From Bacteroides sp. (lineage in GTDB: Bacteria; Bacteroidota; Bacteroidia; Bacteroidales; Muribaculaceae): a stretch of 64,000 nucleotides of DNA. The stretch covers positions 1 to 64,000 of the forward strand of contig JAAVDF010000025.1 in assembly GCA_014801945.1 (NCBI GenBank), given 5' to 3'. A model generated the notes under the pieces. The model saw only the letters and a list, made by a program, of their open reading frames with translations. It searched no databases and was not told the origin of the DNA. Below, one piece after another: positions 3,991 to 46,662 of the stretch (position 1 is its first letter; every line of letters begins with the position of its first letter). A program made the translations under genes and the position numbers.

Positions 3991-4545
3991 TTACTCGTCG
4001 TCGTGGGGGAAGAGTTTATCCTCACGGTCAAGATGGAAATCTTTTGTCAACAAAGCAATGAATTTTGAGATTTGCGTGATGGCATTCTGTGTCTCAGGGG
4101 AAATCTCCTTGCTCTGCAGACGCAGCATAAGCATACCGTAAAGGGCGTTGAAACATGTTTCGATCTCCCCTGTAGGGTTCTCACCGGCTTTGGCGCGAAG
4201 TTCGACGATGTAGGGGAGGGTTTTGTAAAACTCAGCGGTATATTCAGGGAAACGCGGGTCTTTGAGCAGCGCGAGATGCAAGTCCGTCAATTGAATTATG
4301 ACATTCTTATTGAGCTGAAGGTGTCCGCTTTTCTGCACGTTTTCACGACGCATCATATCAATGAGCGATTCATACCATTCCAGCATCTCTTTTTCCTGAG
4401 CAGGCGCAAGATTGAACTTGTCAATGACGTTGGCCTTTATTTTGTCAAGATCCAAGTCATTGGCACGGATTATATCCTCGATCTGCCACATGTAAAGCAG
4501 ATACTCCGCAATATTTTCTTTATTTTTTTGTGATGCGATATACAT
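3991..4545 (-). CDS. DUF4924 family protein
   Basis: Cytoplasmic, largely helical protein of 184 residues with no signal peptide or membrane segment. It starts MYIASQKNKENIAEYLLYMWQ and carries conserved ITQISKFIALLTKDFHLD near the end, which I recognise as the Bacteroidota-specific DUF4924 family. The function is unknown. It is transcribed alone. A TATTTTTG box on the minus strand at 4582-4589 lies about 37 bp ahead of the ATG and faces away from the menD promoter. The family name rests on recall of the sequence pattern, not on a search. Confidence 0.8.
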   Translation of the reverse strand: MYIASQKNKENIAEYLLYMWQIEDIIRANDLDLDKIKANVIDKFNLAPAQEKEMLEWYESLIDMMRRENVQKSGHLQLNKNVIIQLTDLHLALLKDPRFPEYTAEFYKTLPYIVELRAKAGENPTGEIETCFNALYGMLMLRLQSKEISPETQNAITQISKFIALLTKDFHLDREDKLFPHDDE

Positions 4546-4581
4546 TGATGATTATAATTTTGTTCTGAATAAGTGACTATA

Positions 4582-12458: not shown

Positions 12459-13868
12459 ATGGCAAGAAAAAAGAAAGAATTACCACTCCTCAATGACGTC
12501 GAGATACTCGATGTCGCTGCTGAGGGAAACTCGATAGCCCGTGTGGATGATATGGTGGTGTTTGTGCCATTCGGCGCACCCGGCGATGTGGCCGATGTAA
12601 AAATCGACCGCAAGAAACGTAATTATGCCGAAGGACATATCGAAAAACTGACCAAACCGTCGCCAATACGTGTTGAGCCCCGATGCGAACATTTCACACT
12701 ATGTGGTGGATGCCGATGGCAGCATCTCCCGTACGAATTTCAATTGAAATGTAAGCAGAAACAGGTTGAGGATGCTCTGCAGCGGATTGCCAAAATACCT
12801 TTTCCGGAACTTACGCCGATACTTGGCTCTGAAAACATCTGGGAATACCGTAATAAGATGGAATATACCTTCTCAAACAAGAAATGGCTGACATTTGACC
12901 AGCTTCGTTCCGGAGAAGAGTTCCCCGAACGCCGTGCGGCGGGATTCCATATTTCCGGTGCATTTGACAAGGTATTGGACATCAACCGTTGTCACCTTCA
13001 GGATGATCTCGGAAACCGCCTCCGTCTTTTCATCAAGCATTATGGCATGGAGCACGACTATAGCTTCTATGATCTCCGCGAGCAGCATGGACTGTTGCGT
13101 ACGCTGATGATACGAATCGCCTCTACAGGCGAGGTGATGGCCGTCATGGTCTTTGGTGAGGATGACAAGGAGAAGATCTCGGAACTCATGAACGCCATTG
13201 CAGAGAAATTTCCTGAAATCACATCTCTGCTCTATGTTGTAAACACCAAAGTGAATGATACTATCGCTGATCAGGAAATCATTCTCTTCAAGGGTCGTGA
13301 ATATATCGAAGAGGAGATGGAAGGACTGAAATTCAGAGTAGGGCCTAAGTCTTTCTATCAGACCAATTCCCGACAGGCTTACAGACTTTACAGCGTTGCC
13401 CGTGATTTTGCAAAGCTCAAGGGTGACGAACTCGTCTATGACCTCTACACCGGCACAGGCACTATCGCATGTTTCATCGCGCCTAAAGTCCGCCACGTAA
13501 TCGGTATCGAATATGTCCCTGAAGCCATTGAGGATGCTAAGATTAATGCGGAAGTCAATCATCTCGGCAACACTGAATTCTATGCCGGAGATATGAAAAA
13601 CGTGTTGACCGCAGATTTTATCGCTGCTCACGGTCGTCCCGATGTGATGATCGTCGATCCTCCGAGAGCCGGAATGCATGAGGATGTTGTAAAAGTAATC
13701 CTTGATGCAGCTCCTTCTCGCATTGTATATGTAAGCTGCAATCCGGCTACACAGGCACGGGATCTCGCGCTGTTACATGAAAAGTATGATATCGAAGCTG
13801 TACAGCCCGTTGACATGTTCCCTCATACGCAGCACGTTGAAAACGTTGTATCACTGACACTTAGATAA
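12459..13868 (+). CDS. rlmD: 23S rRNA (uracil-5-)-methyltransferase RlmD/RumA family
   Basis: SAM-dependent uracil-C5 methyltransferase of 469 residues. An N-terminal TRAM domain is followed by the [4Fe-4S] ligands C76, C82, C85 and C178 (CEHFTLCGGC and INRCHLQ). Next come the SAM motif DLYTGTGTIACF and the catalytic nucleophile C427 in YVSCNPATQARDL. The iron-sulfur cluster separates it from TrmA. Whether it modifies U1939, U747 or both is not decidable here, so the symbol is the closest homolog name. The stop codon is only 3 bp from the terminator tail of the opposite-strand 6S-like RNA. Confidence 0.88.
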   Translation: MARKKKELPLLNDVEILDVAAEGNSIARVDDMVVFVPFGAPGDVADVKIDRKKRNYAEGHIEKLTKPSPIRVEPRCEHFTLCGGCRWQHLPYEFQLKCKQKQVEDALQRIAKIPFPELTPILGSENIWEYRNKMEYTFSNKKWLTFDQLRSGEEFPERRAAGFHISGAFDKVLDINRCHLQDDLGNRLRLFIKHYGMEHDYSFYDLREQHGLLRTLMIRIASTGEVMAVMVFGEDDKEKISELMNAIAEKFPEITSLLYVVNTKVNDTIADQEIILFKGREYIEEEMEGLKFRVGPKSFYQTNSRQAYRLYSVARDFAKLKGDELVYDLYTGTGTIACFIAPKVRHVIGIEYVPEAIEDAKINAEVNHLGNTEFYAGDMKNVLTADFIAAHGRPDVMIVDPPRAGMHEDVVKVILDAAPSRIVYVSCNPATQARDLALLHEKYDIEAVQPVDMFPHTQHVENVVSLTLR

Positions 13869-13871
13869 AAT

Positions 13872-13906
13872 AAAAAAAGCGTCCGCTGCATCGCGCAGCA
13901 TGACGC
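13872..13906 (-). terminator. Intrinsic terminator of the 6S-like RNA
   Basis: On the minus strand, GCGTC (13906-13902) pairs with GACGC (13883-13879) and GCTGC (13899-13895) with GCAGC (13889-13885) around a 5-nt loop, followed by TTTTTTTATTTT. The U-run fixes the direction as leftward. No protein gene ends just upstream of it on that strand, since topB stops 1 kb away, which is what points to an RNA gene. Confidence 0.8.
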
Positions 13907-14045
13907 CCGAAATTATAATCATCAATTCTAATTATCGGTATTCGTTTTCTCAAACTCATTCTGTAAGAGACAAGGCGGTTGCACACAAACATAAGTGTGT
14001 GATCGCTTTATCTTTCAGATTGATAACAGCTTAAATTGATTTGGG
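13872..14045 (-). ncRNA. Candidate 6S-like regulatory RNA
   Basis: Read on the minus strand, a roughly 175-nt RNA folds as one long hairpin with an internal bubble. The closing stem pairs 14040-14031 with 13921-13931 (ATCAATTTAA against TTAgAATTGAT). It continues with TTATC/GATAA. After an asymmetric bubble, an inner stem pairs GATAAAGCG with CGCCTTGTC, and the apex is CACACA-loop-TGTGTG. A GC-rich hairpin followed by seven U residues ends it. This resembles the architecture of 6S RNA, which binds RNA polymerase in many bacteria including Bacteroidales. I identify it by shape only, not by sequence match. It could be a different structured RNA. Confidence 0.45.
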
Positions 14046-14343
14046 ATAGGAAAATTAGCGGTAATTTTTCATTTGATTCAGAAAAGGATAAGAATGATTA
14101 TTCAATAAGATTTTTTTAGATAATAATAGGTTTAATGTTGTCAGCGATTCTGAGAAATATACTCTCTGTGACGCTTAAATTGTGGAGAGAGGGATCAAGA
14201 TTTCAAATTAATCAGTTTTTGGTTTGAATCTTTTTAGGAACGGGGTTGATATTTGCAATTATGATCGGATTATCGTTAGTTTAGCTGAAGCTAAAAATAT
14301 GATTCCTTGTTATGAAGTTGTGTGTTATTTCATTTTCACAGTG

Positions 14344-14375
14344 CAAAATTATAAAGAATTCAATTCACTGCCAAA
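14344..14375 (-). promoter_or_regulatory. Consensus promoter upstream of the 6S-like RNA
   Basis: On the minus strand TTTG, exactly 20 bp, then TAATTTTG (14351-14344) gives a full match to the Bacteroidota housekeeping promoter. No ORF follows. Transcription would run about 300 nt before reaching the 6S-like hairpin and its terminator. Confidence 0.6.
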
Positions 14376-14912
14376 TGACTTAACTCTTATTGACCAAACT
14401 CCGGCATGATTTAACTATTCAGCACAAAATGCAATGAAATCCATGGAATTATTAACTTAAAATCTTAATAAATCTTCAAATGATTCAAAACATCATATCA
14501 GAGCACTTACAAACCGACCTAAGTCACCACCTATACTTGTCTCCTATAAATTGTCCCATAATCTCGATTATGTAAAATAATGTCTATCTTTTTTACATCG
14601 GCGGTAAATTTTTATCATTTCTCTCTTTCTCATATTTCCGTCTTGTGGATGCTGAGCCACCCTACTTCATTTTCACGGTCCGTATTATTTTCGGATATTA
14701 TTAATGAAAAAGGATTCATATTCATGTTTTAGATCTGCACGCAAAAGATGATTCGGTGTAAAAATCAACTCTATTGTAGTGATCTGTTCTTGTGCTTGCC
14801 GGATTCTACGCTGGTAATTGGCCGATTTTCATATTGCCTTAAATTTCGGTCAGCACAAGCGTAGATCCTACAACCCGAAATTTATCCAGTCTGACACAGC
14901 CACATCCCGTCA

Positions 14913-16979
14913 TTATGCTTTTTTCTTCTGAAGAAGCTTTTTGAGTTTGGCCGGAGTCAGATCTTCAGGATATTCTGAGAAATTAAGACGAAGTGTGCAG
15001 CCTTCACGATAACGGCTACATCCAAAAGCCGTCTTACCTTTTAATAGATGGCCTTGTCCACATACAGGACACTCGATTTGCTCAAATTTACGTGTGCGTG
15101 GCGCACGAGGTTTCGGTTTGTCAGGCTTAGCACTTACGCTACCATCTTTCTCACCCCCGTCATCAGATTTCTTCGGTGAATTATCCACAATAATTTTTGA
15201 ACGGGAATTATCACTCAACACATTGATTACAATCTGATTAATCAGAATTTTCAGCTCCTGAATAAATTCTGCCGCCGAGTATTCGCCACGTTCGATCCTA
15301 CGCAGTTTATTTTCCCAAAGTCCCGTCAGTTTAGCACTTTTAAGCAGCTCTTCATTTATGCTGTCAATCAGGTCGATACCGGCCTGAGAAGCCATGATTG
15401 ACTTACGGTTGCGATGGATATACTTTCTCTTGAAAAGGGTCTCGATTATTGCCGCACGAGTCGATGGACGACCTATGCCATTCTCTTTCATTGCCTCACG
15501 AAGTTCCTCATCCTCAACCGTTTTACCAGCTGATTCCATAGCACGTAACAGCGTACCCTCCGTATAATACTTAGGCGGTTGAGTGGTACGTTTCTGCAAG
15601 GAAGGCTCATGCGGGCCGCTCTCTCCTACCGTAAAATCAGGTAGAATACGGTCATCGCTATTGTCTTCATCATTCTTGGATTCATCCGGAGCGGCATTGT
15701 CATACAATTTTCTCCAGCCCGGATCTTCGATTACCTTACCTGTAGCTTTGAAACCTGTCTTATCTACCTCTCCCATCACTGTCGTACTCAGGAATTTACA
15801 ATCAGGATAAAAGGCAGCTATGAAACGGAGTGCTATAAGATGGTAAAGCTTACGTTCATGTCCTACAAGCACCGTCGGAGACTGTCCGGTAGGAATGATG
15901 GCATGGTGATCCGTTACCTTTGAATTGTCAAATACCTTCTTGCTTTTAGGTAGTTTCGATTCGAGCAAAGGTGATGTAAGCGACGCATACGGCGTCATGT
16001 TGCGCAATATGCCGGGCACCTTGCCATAGATATCATCAGAAAGATACGTCGTATCAACACGCGGATAAGTCGTCACCTTTTTCTCGTAAAGTGACTGTAT
16101 GAGACGGAGAGTTTCGTCAGCGGTCCAACCCCATTTCTTATTACACTCAACCTGTAAGGATGTCAGGTCAAAGAGTCGTGGCGGAGCTTCCCTACCCTTC
16201 TTTTTCTGCACATCTGTGATGACCATCGGGAAAGCCTTTATCGCTTCAAGAGTCGATTCGGCCTCCTCAGGCGACTTAAAACGTCCGGCCGTTGCATTGA
16301 ACACCGCACCTCTGTATAAAGTCTTGAGTTCCCAATAATCCTCCGGCTTGAAATTCTCGATCTCGAAGTGACGCTGCACTATAAGTGCCAGTGTCGGTGT
16401 CTGCACTCGTCCGATCGACAGTACATTGCCCGGAGATGAATATTTGAGCGAATAAAGACGTGTGGCATTCATTCCGAGAATCCAGTCTCCTATGGCACGC
16501 GAAAGCCCTGCATGATAGAGATTGTCAAAATCAGATTCGGGTTGCAGATGAGCAAAGCCCTCACGGATGGATTCATCCGTCAGCGATGAAATCCAAAGCC
16601 GTTTCACCGGACAATGGATCGATGCTTTCTGCATCACCCAACGCTGTATCAGTTCTCCTTCCTGGCCGGCATCACCGCAATTGATCACTTCATCAGCTTC
16701 AGCTATGAGATTCTCGATTACCTGAAACTGACGTTCAATTCCCTTATCCGGTATGACTTTTATACCGAAACGATGAGGAATCATGGGGAGCACACCGAGT
16801 GCCCACCGTTTCCAACGCTCTTCATAATCACCGGGTTCTTTAAGTGTACAAAGATGTCCGAAGGTCCAAGTGACTTTATAGTCCCCACCCTCGTAATAAC
16901 CGTCACGGCGCACATCCGCGCCAAGTATCTGTGCTATATCCTTTGCTACACTGGGTTTCTCGGTGATACAGAGCTTCAT
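14913..16979 (-). CDS. topB: DNA topoisomerase III (type IA)
   Basis: Type IA topoisomerase that decatenates and relaxes single-stranded regions. The protein begins with the TOPRIM signature MKLCITEKPSVAKDIAQILGA. The catalytic tyrosine is Y305 in VTTYPRVDT. At 688 residues it is the chromosomal-type length. A lysine-rich tail ends in a zinc-ribbon-like module with CPVCGQGHLL and FGCSRYREGC. The start overlaps the stop of the preceding secreted-protein gene by 4 bp (ATGA), so topB appears translationally coupled to an unrelated gene. Confidence 0.95.
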   Translation of the reverse strand: MKLCITEKPSVAKDIAQILGADVRRDGYYEGGDYKVTWTFGHLCTLKEPGDYEERWKRWALGVLPMIPHRFGIKVIPDKGIERQFQVIENLIAEADEVINCGDAGQEGELIQRWVMQKASIHCPVKRLWISSLTDESIREGFAHLQPESDFDNLYHAGLSRAIGDWILGMNATRLYSLKYSSPGNVLSIGRVQTPTLALIVQRHFEIENFKPEDYWELKTLYRGAVFNATAGRFKSPEEAESTLEAIKAFPMVITDVQKKKGREAPPRLFDLTSLQVECNKKWGWTADETLRLIQSLYEKKVTTYPRVDTTYLSDDIYGKVPGILRNMTPYASLTSPLLESKLPKSKKVFDNSKVTDHHAIIPTGQSPTVLVGHERKLYHLIALRFIAAFYPDCKFLSTTVMGEVDKTGFKATGKVIEDPGWRKLYDNAAPDESKNDEDNSDDRILPDFTVGESGPHEPSLQKRTTQPPKYYTEGTLLRAMESAGKTVEDEELREAMKENGIGRPSTRAAIIETLFKRKYIHRNRKSIMASQAGIDLIDSINEELLKSAKLTGLWENKLRRIERGEYSAAEFIQELKILINQIVINVLSDNSRSKIIVDNSPKKSDDGGEKDGSVSAKPDKPKPRAPRTRKFEQIECPVCGQGHLLKGKTAFGCSRYREGCTLRLNFSEYPEDLTPAKLKKLLQKKKA

Positions 16980-36975: not shown

Positions 36976-39225
36976 TTACCTGCGACGACGCTTTTTCTTC
37001 CCGTGGTTATTGGAAAGGGCTTCGGCGACAGTAACCTTTTTGCCTAACTCGTCTTCGCCGCTTTTACGCAGTGGTTGTCCCTTGTCATCAAGAAGGAAGA
37101 AGTCAAGCTGTTTCTTTTCAAGATCAGCACGTGCGACCTTGATGTCAACATTATCGCCAAGACGGTAACGATGATTGTGACGACGACCTACGAGACAGTG
37201 GTTCTTTTCATCGAAATCATAGAAATCGTCCGCAAGATCACGCATAGGGACAAGACCTTCACAAAGATTGTCGTTAAGCTCGACATACAGTCCCCACTCG
37301 GTAACACCGGAAATGATACCTGAGTAAGTCTCGCCGATATGTTCCTGCATGTACTCGACCTGCTTATATTTGATCGACGAGCGTTCAGCGGTGGAAGCAA
37401 GAATCTCCATCTCACTCGAATGCCTGCACTGATCCTCAAGCTTCTGGACATTCACGCTGCGTCCACCTGCAAGATAGCGTTCGAGCAGACGGTGAACCAT
37501 CATGTCGGGATAACGGCGGATAGGTGAAGTGAAGTGGGTGTAGTATTCAAAGCCAAGTCCGTAGTGACCGATGTTGTCAGTCGTATATACTGCCTTTGCC
37601 ATCGAACGTATAGCGAGGGTTGCAAGGTAATTCTCCTCACCCCTGCCCTTCACCTCGTCGAGCATACGGTTGATCGAACGGTTGATCTCACGTGGCGTAC
37701 CTGATGCCTTTATCTTGTAGCCGAATGCGCGTGCGATGGAGGCAAGATCGGCAAGACGTGTGGGATCGGGCACATCATGGACACGATAGACAAATGCCTT
37801 TGGCTTCTTCTTGTCCTTTGGCTTGCCGACAAAGGTTGCAACCGTACGGTTGGCGAGCAGCATGAATTCCTCGATGAGCTTATTGGCATCCTTCATCACT
37901 TTGAAGAACACGCCTAAGGGTTTGCCATCTTCATTAATATGGAATTTTACTTCCGGGCGGTCAAACTCAACCGAACCGTTCTCGTAACGCTGACGGCGGA
38001 GGATCTTTGCGAGACCGTTGAGGGTCTGAATAGCTTCCACACAGTCACCGAGACCGGTCTCGATTACTTCCTGAGCCTCCTCGTATGCAAAACGACGGTC
38101 AGACTTTATAACGGTACGCGCGATCTTAGAGCTGAGCACCTTCGCCTCACTATCCATGTGGAAAATAACTGAAAACGCCAACTTTTCCTCATTGGGACGA
38201 AGAGAACAGATGCCGTTACACAGATGCTCCGGGAGCATCGGGACAACGCGATCGACAAGATAGACGGATGTGGCTCGCTTCTGGGCCTCACGGTCAATGA
38301 TAGTGTCAGGCTGCACATAGTGCGTCACATCGGCAATATGCACGCCGACCTCATAATTACCGCTGGGGAGAACGCGGAATGACAAGGCATCGTCAAAGTC
38401 CTTGGCATCCGCAGGGTCAATGGTAAATGTGAGGACATCACGCATGTCTATACGTTGCGCGATCACTTCCTCCGTTATACCGGCGTCAATCTTGTCGGCA
38501 GCTTTCTCTACTGCGGCAGGATATTTGTATGGCAGACCGAACTCTGCGAGAATAGCATGTATCTCAGCATTGTTCTCACCGGCACGGCCGAGAATATCGA
38601 CCACCTCACCACTCGGATTCTTGCTGTCTTCTTTCCACTCGACAATCCTTACCACTGCCTTATCACCGGTCTTGCCACCTTTGAGTTTGGCTTTGGGAAT
38701 GAATATGTCGGTCGAAAGATATTTGGAATCCGTAAGAAGGTATGCGAAATGGCGATCGACCTTGAGCGTTCCGATGAACGTCTGATCCTTCTTTTCAATT
38801 ATCTCTATCACCTCGGCCTCCGGCTCGGCACCACGACGGTGAGCAGCGATGTTGACACGTACTTTATCGCCGTTAAGCGCACGCATTGAATTGCGTTCGG
38901 CCACCATGATGGCCTCGCCATCGGCATCGGTGATCACAGAATTCTTACCGTTGCTGCGGCGTACAAACACTCCGGTGGCCTCATTGCCACGCTGGGGTGA
39001 TTTGTACTTACCGGGAGCCACTTCTATGATCTGTCCGTTGAAGGCCATTTCGACAAGTTGAAGCGCGATGTTCCGCTGCTGGGTTGCAGTGGTGGCCCCG
39101 ATAGCATGGGCCACCTGCTTATAGTTATATGTGTTGTTTTTTTGCTGCGCGACAAATTCCTCCACCTTCTTCTCGAGGATGGCGGCACTTCGTGAACCGG
39201 CAGTTGCTTTCTTTGATTGAGCCAT
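36976..39225 (-). CDS. rnr: Ribonuclease R
   Basis: 749-residue 3'-5' exoribonuclease. N-terminal helix-turn-helix and cold-shock domains (about residues 25-230) lead to the RNB catalytic domain with DPADAKDFDDALSF, which holds the metal-binding aspartates. A C-terminal S1 domain (ETYSGIISGVTEWGLYVEL) and a basic tail (KKKRRRR) follow. It degrades structured RNA and helps in rRNA quality control. It lies 67 bp after gyrB. A small palindrome overlaps the gyrB stop between them. Confidence 0.95.
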   Translation of the reverse strand: MAQSKKATAGSRSAAILEKKVEEFVAQQKNNTYNYKQVAHAIGATTATQQRNIALQLVEMAFNGQIIEVAPGKYKSPQRGNEATGVFVRRSNGKNSVITDADGEAIMVAERNSMRALNGDKVRVNIAAHRRGAEPEAEVIEIIEKKDQTFIGTLKVDRHFAYLLTDSKYLSTDIFIPKAKLKGGKTGDKAVVRIVEWKEDSKNPSGEVVDILGRAGENNAEIHAILAEFGLPYKYPAAVEKAADKIDAGITEEVIAQRIDMRDVLTFTIDPADAKDFDDALSFRVLPSGNYEVGVHIADVTHYVQPDTIIDREAQKRATSVYLVDRVVPMLPEHLCNGICSLRPNEEKLAFSVIFHMDSEAKVLSSKIARTVIKSDRRFAYEEAQEVIETGLGDCVEAIQTLNGLAKILRRQRYENGSVEFDRPEVKFHINEDGKPLGVFFKVMKDANKLIEEFMLLANRTVATFVGKPKDKKKPKAFVYRVHDVPDPTRLADLASIARAFGYKIKASGTPREINRSINRMLDEVKGRGEENYLATLAIRSMAKAVYTTDNIGHYGLGFEYYTHFTSPIRRYPDMMVHRLLERYLAGGRSVNVQKLEDQCRHSSEMEILASTAERSSIKYKQVEYMQEHIGETYSGIISGVTEWGLYVELNDNLCEGLVPMRDLADDFYDFDEKNHCLVGRRHNHRYRLGDNVDIKVARADLEKKQLDFFLLDDKGQPLRKSGEDELGKKVTVAEALSNNHGKKKRRRR

Positions 39226-39279
39226 AGTATAAACGAGGTGTGTATGAATTGATGATTATTTTATGAATAAACGCTTGTA

Positions 39280-45387: not shown

Positions 45388-45415
45388 AGTGGAAGTGCAT
45401 TAAAGCACTTCCACT
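45388..45415 (-). repeat. Perfect hairpin overlapping the purT stop codon
   Basis: AGTGGAAGTGC and GCACTTCCACT (45388-45398 and 45405-45415) form an 11-bp perfect stem with a 6-nt loop that contains the end of purT. It is followed on the minus strand by CCTCCCTCC, not by U residues. Confidence 0.55.
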
Positions 45416-46584
45416 GTAAGTTTTTCATAAGCGCGATCAGCCTTGGCTCTCGCCTCCTCCACTGTGTCGGCGGTAGCAAGGATGACGGCCATACGGCGGT
45501 GTCCCTTCACTTCGGGCTTGCCGAATATGCGCATCTGCACTCCGGGCTCTTCAAGAACCTTTTCAAGTCCGCCCATCACGACTTCCTTACTGTCGCCTTC
45601 TACGACAACAGCACGTGAAGCCGACGGAGCGAGGAAACGGATTTCAGGGACAGGGAGGCCTGTCAGGGCGCGTGCATGGAGAGCAAATTCACTAAGCTCC
45701 TGCGAGATCATAGTGACCATACCGGTGTCATGGGGGCGTGGCGAAACCTCACTGAAGATCACTTCATCACCCTTGATAAAAAGCTCCACACCGAAAATTC
45801 CGTAACCACCGAGAGCATCGGTCACCTTCCGAGCTATCTCCTGCGCCTTGGCCTTCGCAGCCGGCGTCATGGCCTGTGGCTGCCAAGAATAACGGTAGTC
45901 ACCATCAACCTGAATATGGCCGATAGGCTCGCAGAACGATGTGCCGGCCACTGAACGCACAGTGAGAAGGGTGATTTCATAATCGAAATTCACGAAGCCC
46001 TCGACAATGACACGACCAGCACCTGCGCGTCCGCCTTCCTGTGCGATTTTCCATGACTTCTCTATATCATCGGCTGACTTTATCACACTCTGACCGTGAC
46101 CGCTCGACGACATGATAGGTTTCACGACACAAGGAATACCCACGGCCTCCACAGCGGCCTTGAATTCTTCAAAATCCGAAGCAAAACGGTAGGGTGAAGT
46201 CGTGACGCCAAGCTCCTCGGCTGCAAGACGACGGATACCCTCACGGTTCATTGTCAGCCATGCGGCCTTGGCTGTCGGGGTCACATTCTGACCTTTCTCT
46301 TCAAGTTCCACGAGCACGGGGGTGGCTATGGCTTCCACTTCCGGGATGATATGGTCAGGTTTTTCCTCTGCAATAGCAGTTTTCAGAGCTTCAGGATCAA
46401 GCATGTTGAACACGCGGCAGCTATCTGCCACCTGCATTGCAGGAGCGTTGGCATACTTGTCGCAGGCAACAACCTCGACGCCCATACGCTGCAGTTCAAT
46501 CGCTACTTCCTTGCCTAATTCTCCACTTCCGAGAAGCATGGCCTTGCGGCCGCTTCCGGTCCATTTACTTCCTATTTTTGCCAT
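45400..46584 (-). CDS. purT: Formate-dependent phosphoribosylglycinamide formyltransferase
   Basis: ATP-grasp enzyme that formylates GAR in purine synthesis using formate instead of formyl-tetrahydrofolate. It has 394 residues. The N-terminal motif [27 protein letters not shown] is typical of PurT/PurK. ATP-grasp motifs include [14 protein letters not shown] and [29 protein letters not shown] -7 box TAAATTTG at 46670-46663 lies 78 bp ahead. The stop is embedded in a perfect 11-bp hairpin. Confidence 0.96.
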
Positions 46585-46662
46585 CAGTGATTAATGAAAT
46601 GATTGGTTATTGATGATTACTGCCTGACTTTCCGGTCCGGAATCATCTTTGATTGACTGCTG

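Follow-up and report, generated by a model that had tools for sequence, protein, structure and literature searches.

What does the intergenic segment between rlmD and topB encode? The window analysed here, a stretch of 64,000 nt, is contig C25 of a Duncaniella metagenome-assembled genome (G000; 2.6 Mb, 79% complete), and the rlmD–topB segment in it contains no ORF. Duncaniella is a common genus of the mouse gut. Few small RNAs (sRNAs) are known from Bacteroidota, and none from Duncaniella was found in the literature searched. The first-pass annotation had proposed a 6S-like RNA gene of 174 nt in this gene-free kilobase. An RNA gene was borne out by a promoter, a covarying terminator and genus-wide conservation, and the locus is almost certainly a genuine one. 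It is a previously undescribed sRNA gene. The 174 nt are not the whole of it, as the promoter is located about 300 bp further upstream and the 174 nt form the 3' part of the predicted transcript (Table 1).

Table 1. Features of the sRNA locus, its neighbors and its predicted target sites in the window
Feature	Position	Strand	Basis or remark
rlmD	12459-13868	+	left-hand neighbor of the RNA locus
Intrinsic terminator: GC hairpin, conserved CUGCGYGAUGCAG top, T-run	13872..13908	-	covariation across copies
Predicted sRNA transcript, ~465 nt	13872..14338	-	ends placed by promoter (5', to within a few nt) and terminator (3')
Ultraconserved 31-nt core ATACCGATAATTAGAATTGATGATTATAATT, proposed targeting region	13911..13941	-	comparison of 23 genomes
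Variable hairpin including GATAAAGCG/CGCCTTGTC	13959..14018	-	sequence and length vary by species
ATCAATTTAAGCTGTTATCAATCTG, 5' arm of the first-pass annotation, able to pair with the core	14016..14040	-	alignment and fold; close relatives only
Leader block TTCTTATCC..TTACCGCTAATTTTCCTATC	14046..14094	-	alignment; kept in 8 close relatives
sRNA promoter: TTG 14374-14372, 20-nt spacer, -7 box TAATTTTG 14351-14344	14344..14374	-	sigma-ABfr type
Canonical chromosome dimer resolution site (dif) TTGTCCCATAATCTCGATTATGTAAAAT	14551-14578	+	dif consensus score 19.2
topB	14913-16979	-	right-hand neighbor; RNA locus lies between rlmD and topB
Predicted target site, 16 nt complementary, at start codon of DUF4924 gene (3991-4545)	4544..4559	-	inference
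Predicted target: 14 nt, lying 34 nt before the RNase R gene (36976-39225)	39246..39259	-	inference
Predicted target: 11 nt, lying 35 nt before purT (45400-46584)	46609..46619	-	inference

Promoter and terminator

The TTG/TAnnTTTG pattern is the sigma-ABfr consensus reported for Bacteroides (PMC7366714). With boxes at 14374 and 14351-14344, the transcript is predicted to start near 14338 and to stop at 13872. An exact TTG-N20-TAnnTTTG was found upstream of 22 of the 23 copies of the gene and the TAnnTTTG -7 box upstream of all 23, against a background of 0.13 motifs per kb per strand; 4 of the 23 regions had one on the antisense strand. The distance from promoter to core ranges from about 150 to 480 nt among the copies, and the predicted transcript length differs about twofold or more.

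A leftward terminator 3 bp past the rlmD stop that serves no protein gene had been noticed in the first pass. We confirmed it: its stem occupies 13908-13877 of the minus strand with a T-run reaching 13872, no annotated ORF precedes it, and it is the sole terminator-like site in the gap. The sequence of the stem changes among copies while its pairing is kept (88% of cells paired, versus 35-66% in slid controls), and 7 of its 13 pairs are altered on both sides. Terminator hairpins with CUGCGUGAUGCAG or a near-identical top were also seen in other Muribaculaceae genera (L286, L288, L289, L291), where the core is absent; one CUGCGUGAUGCAG-type terminator from these genera sits directly after a protein gene.

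A near-invariant core found in Duncaniella

In the 31-nt core, 27 columns are invariant across 23 genomes and 20 of the 23 copies are identical, although the flanks cannot be aligned between copies. Of the 27 genus genomes, 23 each have one copy of a 29-nt part of the core, among them all 14 good ones; the four genomes without it are 71-84% complete. Matches to the minus-strand sequence were confined to Duncaniella. An exact 26-mer of the core retrieved 17 records only from the GTDB set, all of them Duncaniella-type. Among the exact-core relatives are Duncaniella MAGs and Duncaniella muris DSM 103720, whose copy is on NZ_PUEC01000004.1 and has a predicted transcript of about 320 nt. A covariance-model search of 397 genomes of the family gave no convincing homologue outside the genus; the hits in other genera (E 0.003-0.04) mostly have the terminator hairpin in common. 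The exact core is absent from IMG/VR, and thus a viral origin is unsupported.

The gene neighborhood shifts: rlmD is downstream in 11 genomes and different genes are found elsewhere, while at least 300 bases upstream of the RNA copies are nearly always free of ORFs. In one genome, three core-like copies are arrayed in tandem at a spacing of about 37 bp between mscL and a pullulanase-like gene (L032 1501-1591; G025:C11, ~1,640,000). On the strand of the pullulanase mRNA these copies read antisense to the core, and they might possibly act as an RNA sponge.

Folding of the transcript

The first-pass annotation described, from pairing by hand, one long rod with an internal arm. The minimum-energy form of 13914-14045 (132 nt, minus strand, folded alone) reproduces this plan exactly, with AUCAAUUU/AAUUGAU and GUUAUC/GAUAAU as rod pairs and GAUAAAGCG/CGCCUUGUC as the inner arm. 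Its energy is -28 kcal/mol (z -3.1), and 0 of 200 shuffles were as good. Adding the terminator gave z -3.8, but the outer rod pairs then give way to others. The closed rod is not a property of the gene: its 5' arm can be aligned in 8 of the 23 copies, all close relatives, and the remaining 15 lack it. RNAalifold places the core, whose sequence never varies, in a predicted AU hairpin with the loop GAAUUGA, and in predicted folds of the whole transcript the core is partly paired. ATCAATTTAAGCTGTTATCAATCTG, which can pair with the core, is a possible self-sequestering strand of the close relatives.

Complementarity to mRNA start regions

We compared the core with the -45..+3 regions of a sample of 1834 genes, using 150 order-3 Markov probes as controls. 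Contiguous complementarity of 10+, 11+, 12+ and 13+ bases was found in 31, 17, 10 and 5 regions, respectively. The probes gave means of 4.5, 1.25, 0.37 and 0.08 and maxima of 21, 14, 7 and 2, and the antisense strand gave 2, 1, 0 and 0. The word AATCATCAAT occurred in these regions 14 times in sense, 0 times in antisense and 0 times reversed, and is the top 10-mer of the upstream regions behind promoter boxes only. Since the words are strand-specific, a transcription-factor site is unlikely.

With up to three mismatches, 16 sites complementary over 22 nt were found outside the gene, versus 1 for the reversed control, and most are in sense orientation 1-33 nt upstream of start codons. Eight of them are four orthologous pairs, at obgE (G000, G026), a CoA-transferase gene (G033, G008), an HdeD-like gene (G011, G007) and a site downstream of a lipoprotein gene. 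Others precede era (G005), an asparaginase-like gene (G027) and a universal-stress gene (G000), and a related site is found before a purine nucleoside phosphorylase-like gene in G030. Sites of 16 nt with up to two mismatches, the genome's own copy counted, number 8.1 per Duncaniella genome versus 2.3 in other genera (controls, 1.1 and 1.2). The pairing is centered on AUUGAUGAUU and leaves the 5' part of the core, ACCGAUA, unused; at obgE, 21 nt are complementary to the core. The predicted targets include obgE, der, infB, nusB, rnr, purT, pyrF, pgk, trxB and gdhA, some of these names being our own reading of the sequences.

Not every measure pointed to targeting. Sites of 8-10 nt were shared between orthologues no more often than those of shuffled probes. 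By summed duplex energy the core was only weakly better than shuffled cores, and the antisense strand was lower still in energy; because G-U pairs and composition dominate this score, contiguous complementarity was taken instead. Moreover, a Duncaniella genome has on average 16 occurrences of AATCATCAAT near ATG, compared with 9 in other Muribaculaceae genera and 28 in one such genus; the genera rich in the word are g14, g43 and g51. Its enrichment is therefore partly independent of the sRNA, or relatives of the sRNA have been missed.

Alternative explanations

The first-pass annotation read the locus as 6S RNA, which would bind RNA polymerase, and a second, divergent 6S RNA is a variant of this reading. 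Its basis is the locally rod-like fold of the 132-nt segment in the window's species; the rod is not conserved, and the transcript length varies about twofold or more among copies. Rfam covariance models matched nothing at the gathering threshold in the whole window, and no 6S-family match was found in 13700-15000 up to E 10. RF00013 had no match anywhere in the G000 genome, whereas RF01693 (Bacteroidales-1) matched with 138 bits on a different contig from the RNA locus (G000:C6:234-418) and in one place in 12 of the 13 Duncaniella genomes searched. For B. thetaiotaomicron, a 6S RNA that has pRNAs is on record (PMC7366714); in our reading it would correspond to the Bacteroidales-1 family. A better 6S candidate thus exists in the same genome, and we consider a 6S identity of the locus extremely improbable. 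A rod-like fold in a single genome says little about whether an RNA is 6S. Even less credible is an ordinary terminator with an untranslated spacer that folds by chance. It would suit the intergenic position, the lack of an ORF and the presence of the CUGCGUGAUGCAG top after protein genes in other genera, but not 27 invariant core columns of 31 across 23 genomes or the exact promoter spacing. The core could also be read as DNA and not as RNA, namely as a dif or Xer site at the replication terminus. Like such a site it is single copy, about 30 bp, extremely conserved and in a fluid context, and in G008 it is near the GC-skew switch. However, the same gap already holds a canonical dif (Table 1), the best score of the core against the 28-bp dif consensus is -7.1 versus 19.2 for that site, and the promoter and covarying terminator call for an RNA. 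As the canonical dif stands 600 bp away and most core copies have no dif within 10 kb, we dropped this reading, which is very unlikely to be right.

A more serious alternative is that the sRNA is real and independently transcribed while its core binds a protein or another RNA, the 5'UTR word being a separate, family-wide property of start regions. AATCATCAAT is frequent before ATG in genera without a detectable homologue, the core 5' part ACCGATA is invariant yet has almost no 5'UTR match, and the short sites are not conserved between orthologues. On the other hand, exact complementarity of 14-21 nt occurs in single 5'UTRs and is strand-specific, the excess of long sites is greatest in Duncaniella, and a binding protein leaves the reverse-complement words in mRNAs unexplained. 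We regard this alternative as possible but somewhat unlikely. Our preferred reading, to which we give a probability of roughly 60% from sequence comparison, is a stand-alone gene for a trans-acting antisense sRNA that would work at translation start sites.

The dif site and the chromosome terminus

Near-identical dif sites were located about 450-640 bp from the core in G002, G005, G008 and G026; the distance is about 2 kb in G012 and 7 kb in G033. The dif of G008 coincides with the GC-skew switch. In this genome the 16S strands and GC skew imply an origin far from dnaA (G008:C1 3,187,724), which is on the terminus side of the chromosome, about 0.2 Mb from dif. The dnaA gene of G000 (G000:C6 11,306) and the Bacteroidales-1 match are 11 kb apart on C6. 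In G033, an insertion of about 6.1 kb separates a partial dif-like site from the intact dif (L096 10721-16850; G033:C1). It contains genes for a replication initiator, a pilot protein, a major capsid protein and an endolysin and is, judged by its sequence, a Microviridae provirus at dif, resembling those described previously (PMC3091885).

A proposed regulator of translation starts

The locus has the features of a trans-acting sRNA gene: its own promoter, an intrinsic terminator, a conserved candidate targeting region and complementarity to mRNA starts above chance. From sequence and comparison, RNA polymerase would start near 14340 at a housekeeping sigma-ABfr promoter, run leftward through the variable leader and stop at the hairpin adjoining rlmD. 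In many mRNAs, the core, chiefly GAAUUGAUGAUUAU, would then pair with AAUCAUCAAUUCUAA-like sequences shortly before the start codon, GAAUUGAUGA being the sRNA stretch proposed to pair with the target. Covering the start region would most likely block ribosome binding. The predicted targets lean to growth functions (obgE, der, era, infB, nusB, rnr, purT, pyrF, pgk), and the sRNA may tune growth to conditions. In the window's species and seven close relatives, the leader strand that can pair with the core could hold it inactive.

GcvB is a multi-target enterobacterial sRNA with a strongly conserved region that pairs with many translation start regions. The Duncaniella core is likewise predicted to pair with many start regions, a likeness in plan, its targets being predictions only. 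GibS and MasB are intergenic sRNAs of Bacteroides thetaiotaomicron; GibS has a Rho-independent terminator at its end and a highly conserved, mainly single-stranded stretch, and repression by MasB probably works through binding to the 5' region of its target mRNA (PMC7366714, PMC10994844). Compared by description only, the Duncaniella sRNA is also an intergenic, terminator-ended RNA of Bacteroidales. However, it belongs to another genus, its conserved stretch is beside the terminator and not at the 5' end, its leader is long and variable, and its exact core is confined to Duncaniella-type genomes.

A broader proposal, which we consider doubtful, is that the sRNA is a genus-wide global translation regulator that reads AAUCAUCAAUUCUAA as an address word before many growth-gene starts, and that other Muribaculaceae genera rich in the word carry unrecognised relatives. 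Bacteroidota is a phylum largely without Shine-Dalgarno pairing. If the pairing is real, an unusually rigid core, with GTPases of ribosome assembly and genes of RNA decay among its predicted targets, would offer a simple handle on how translation starts are controlled in a phylum that largely does without Shine-Dalgarno sites.
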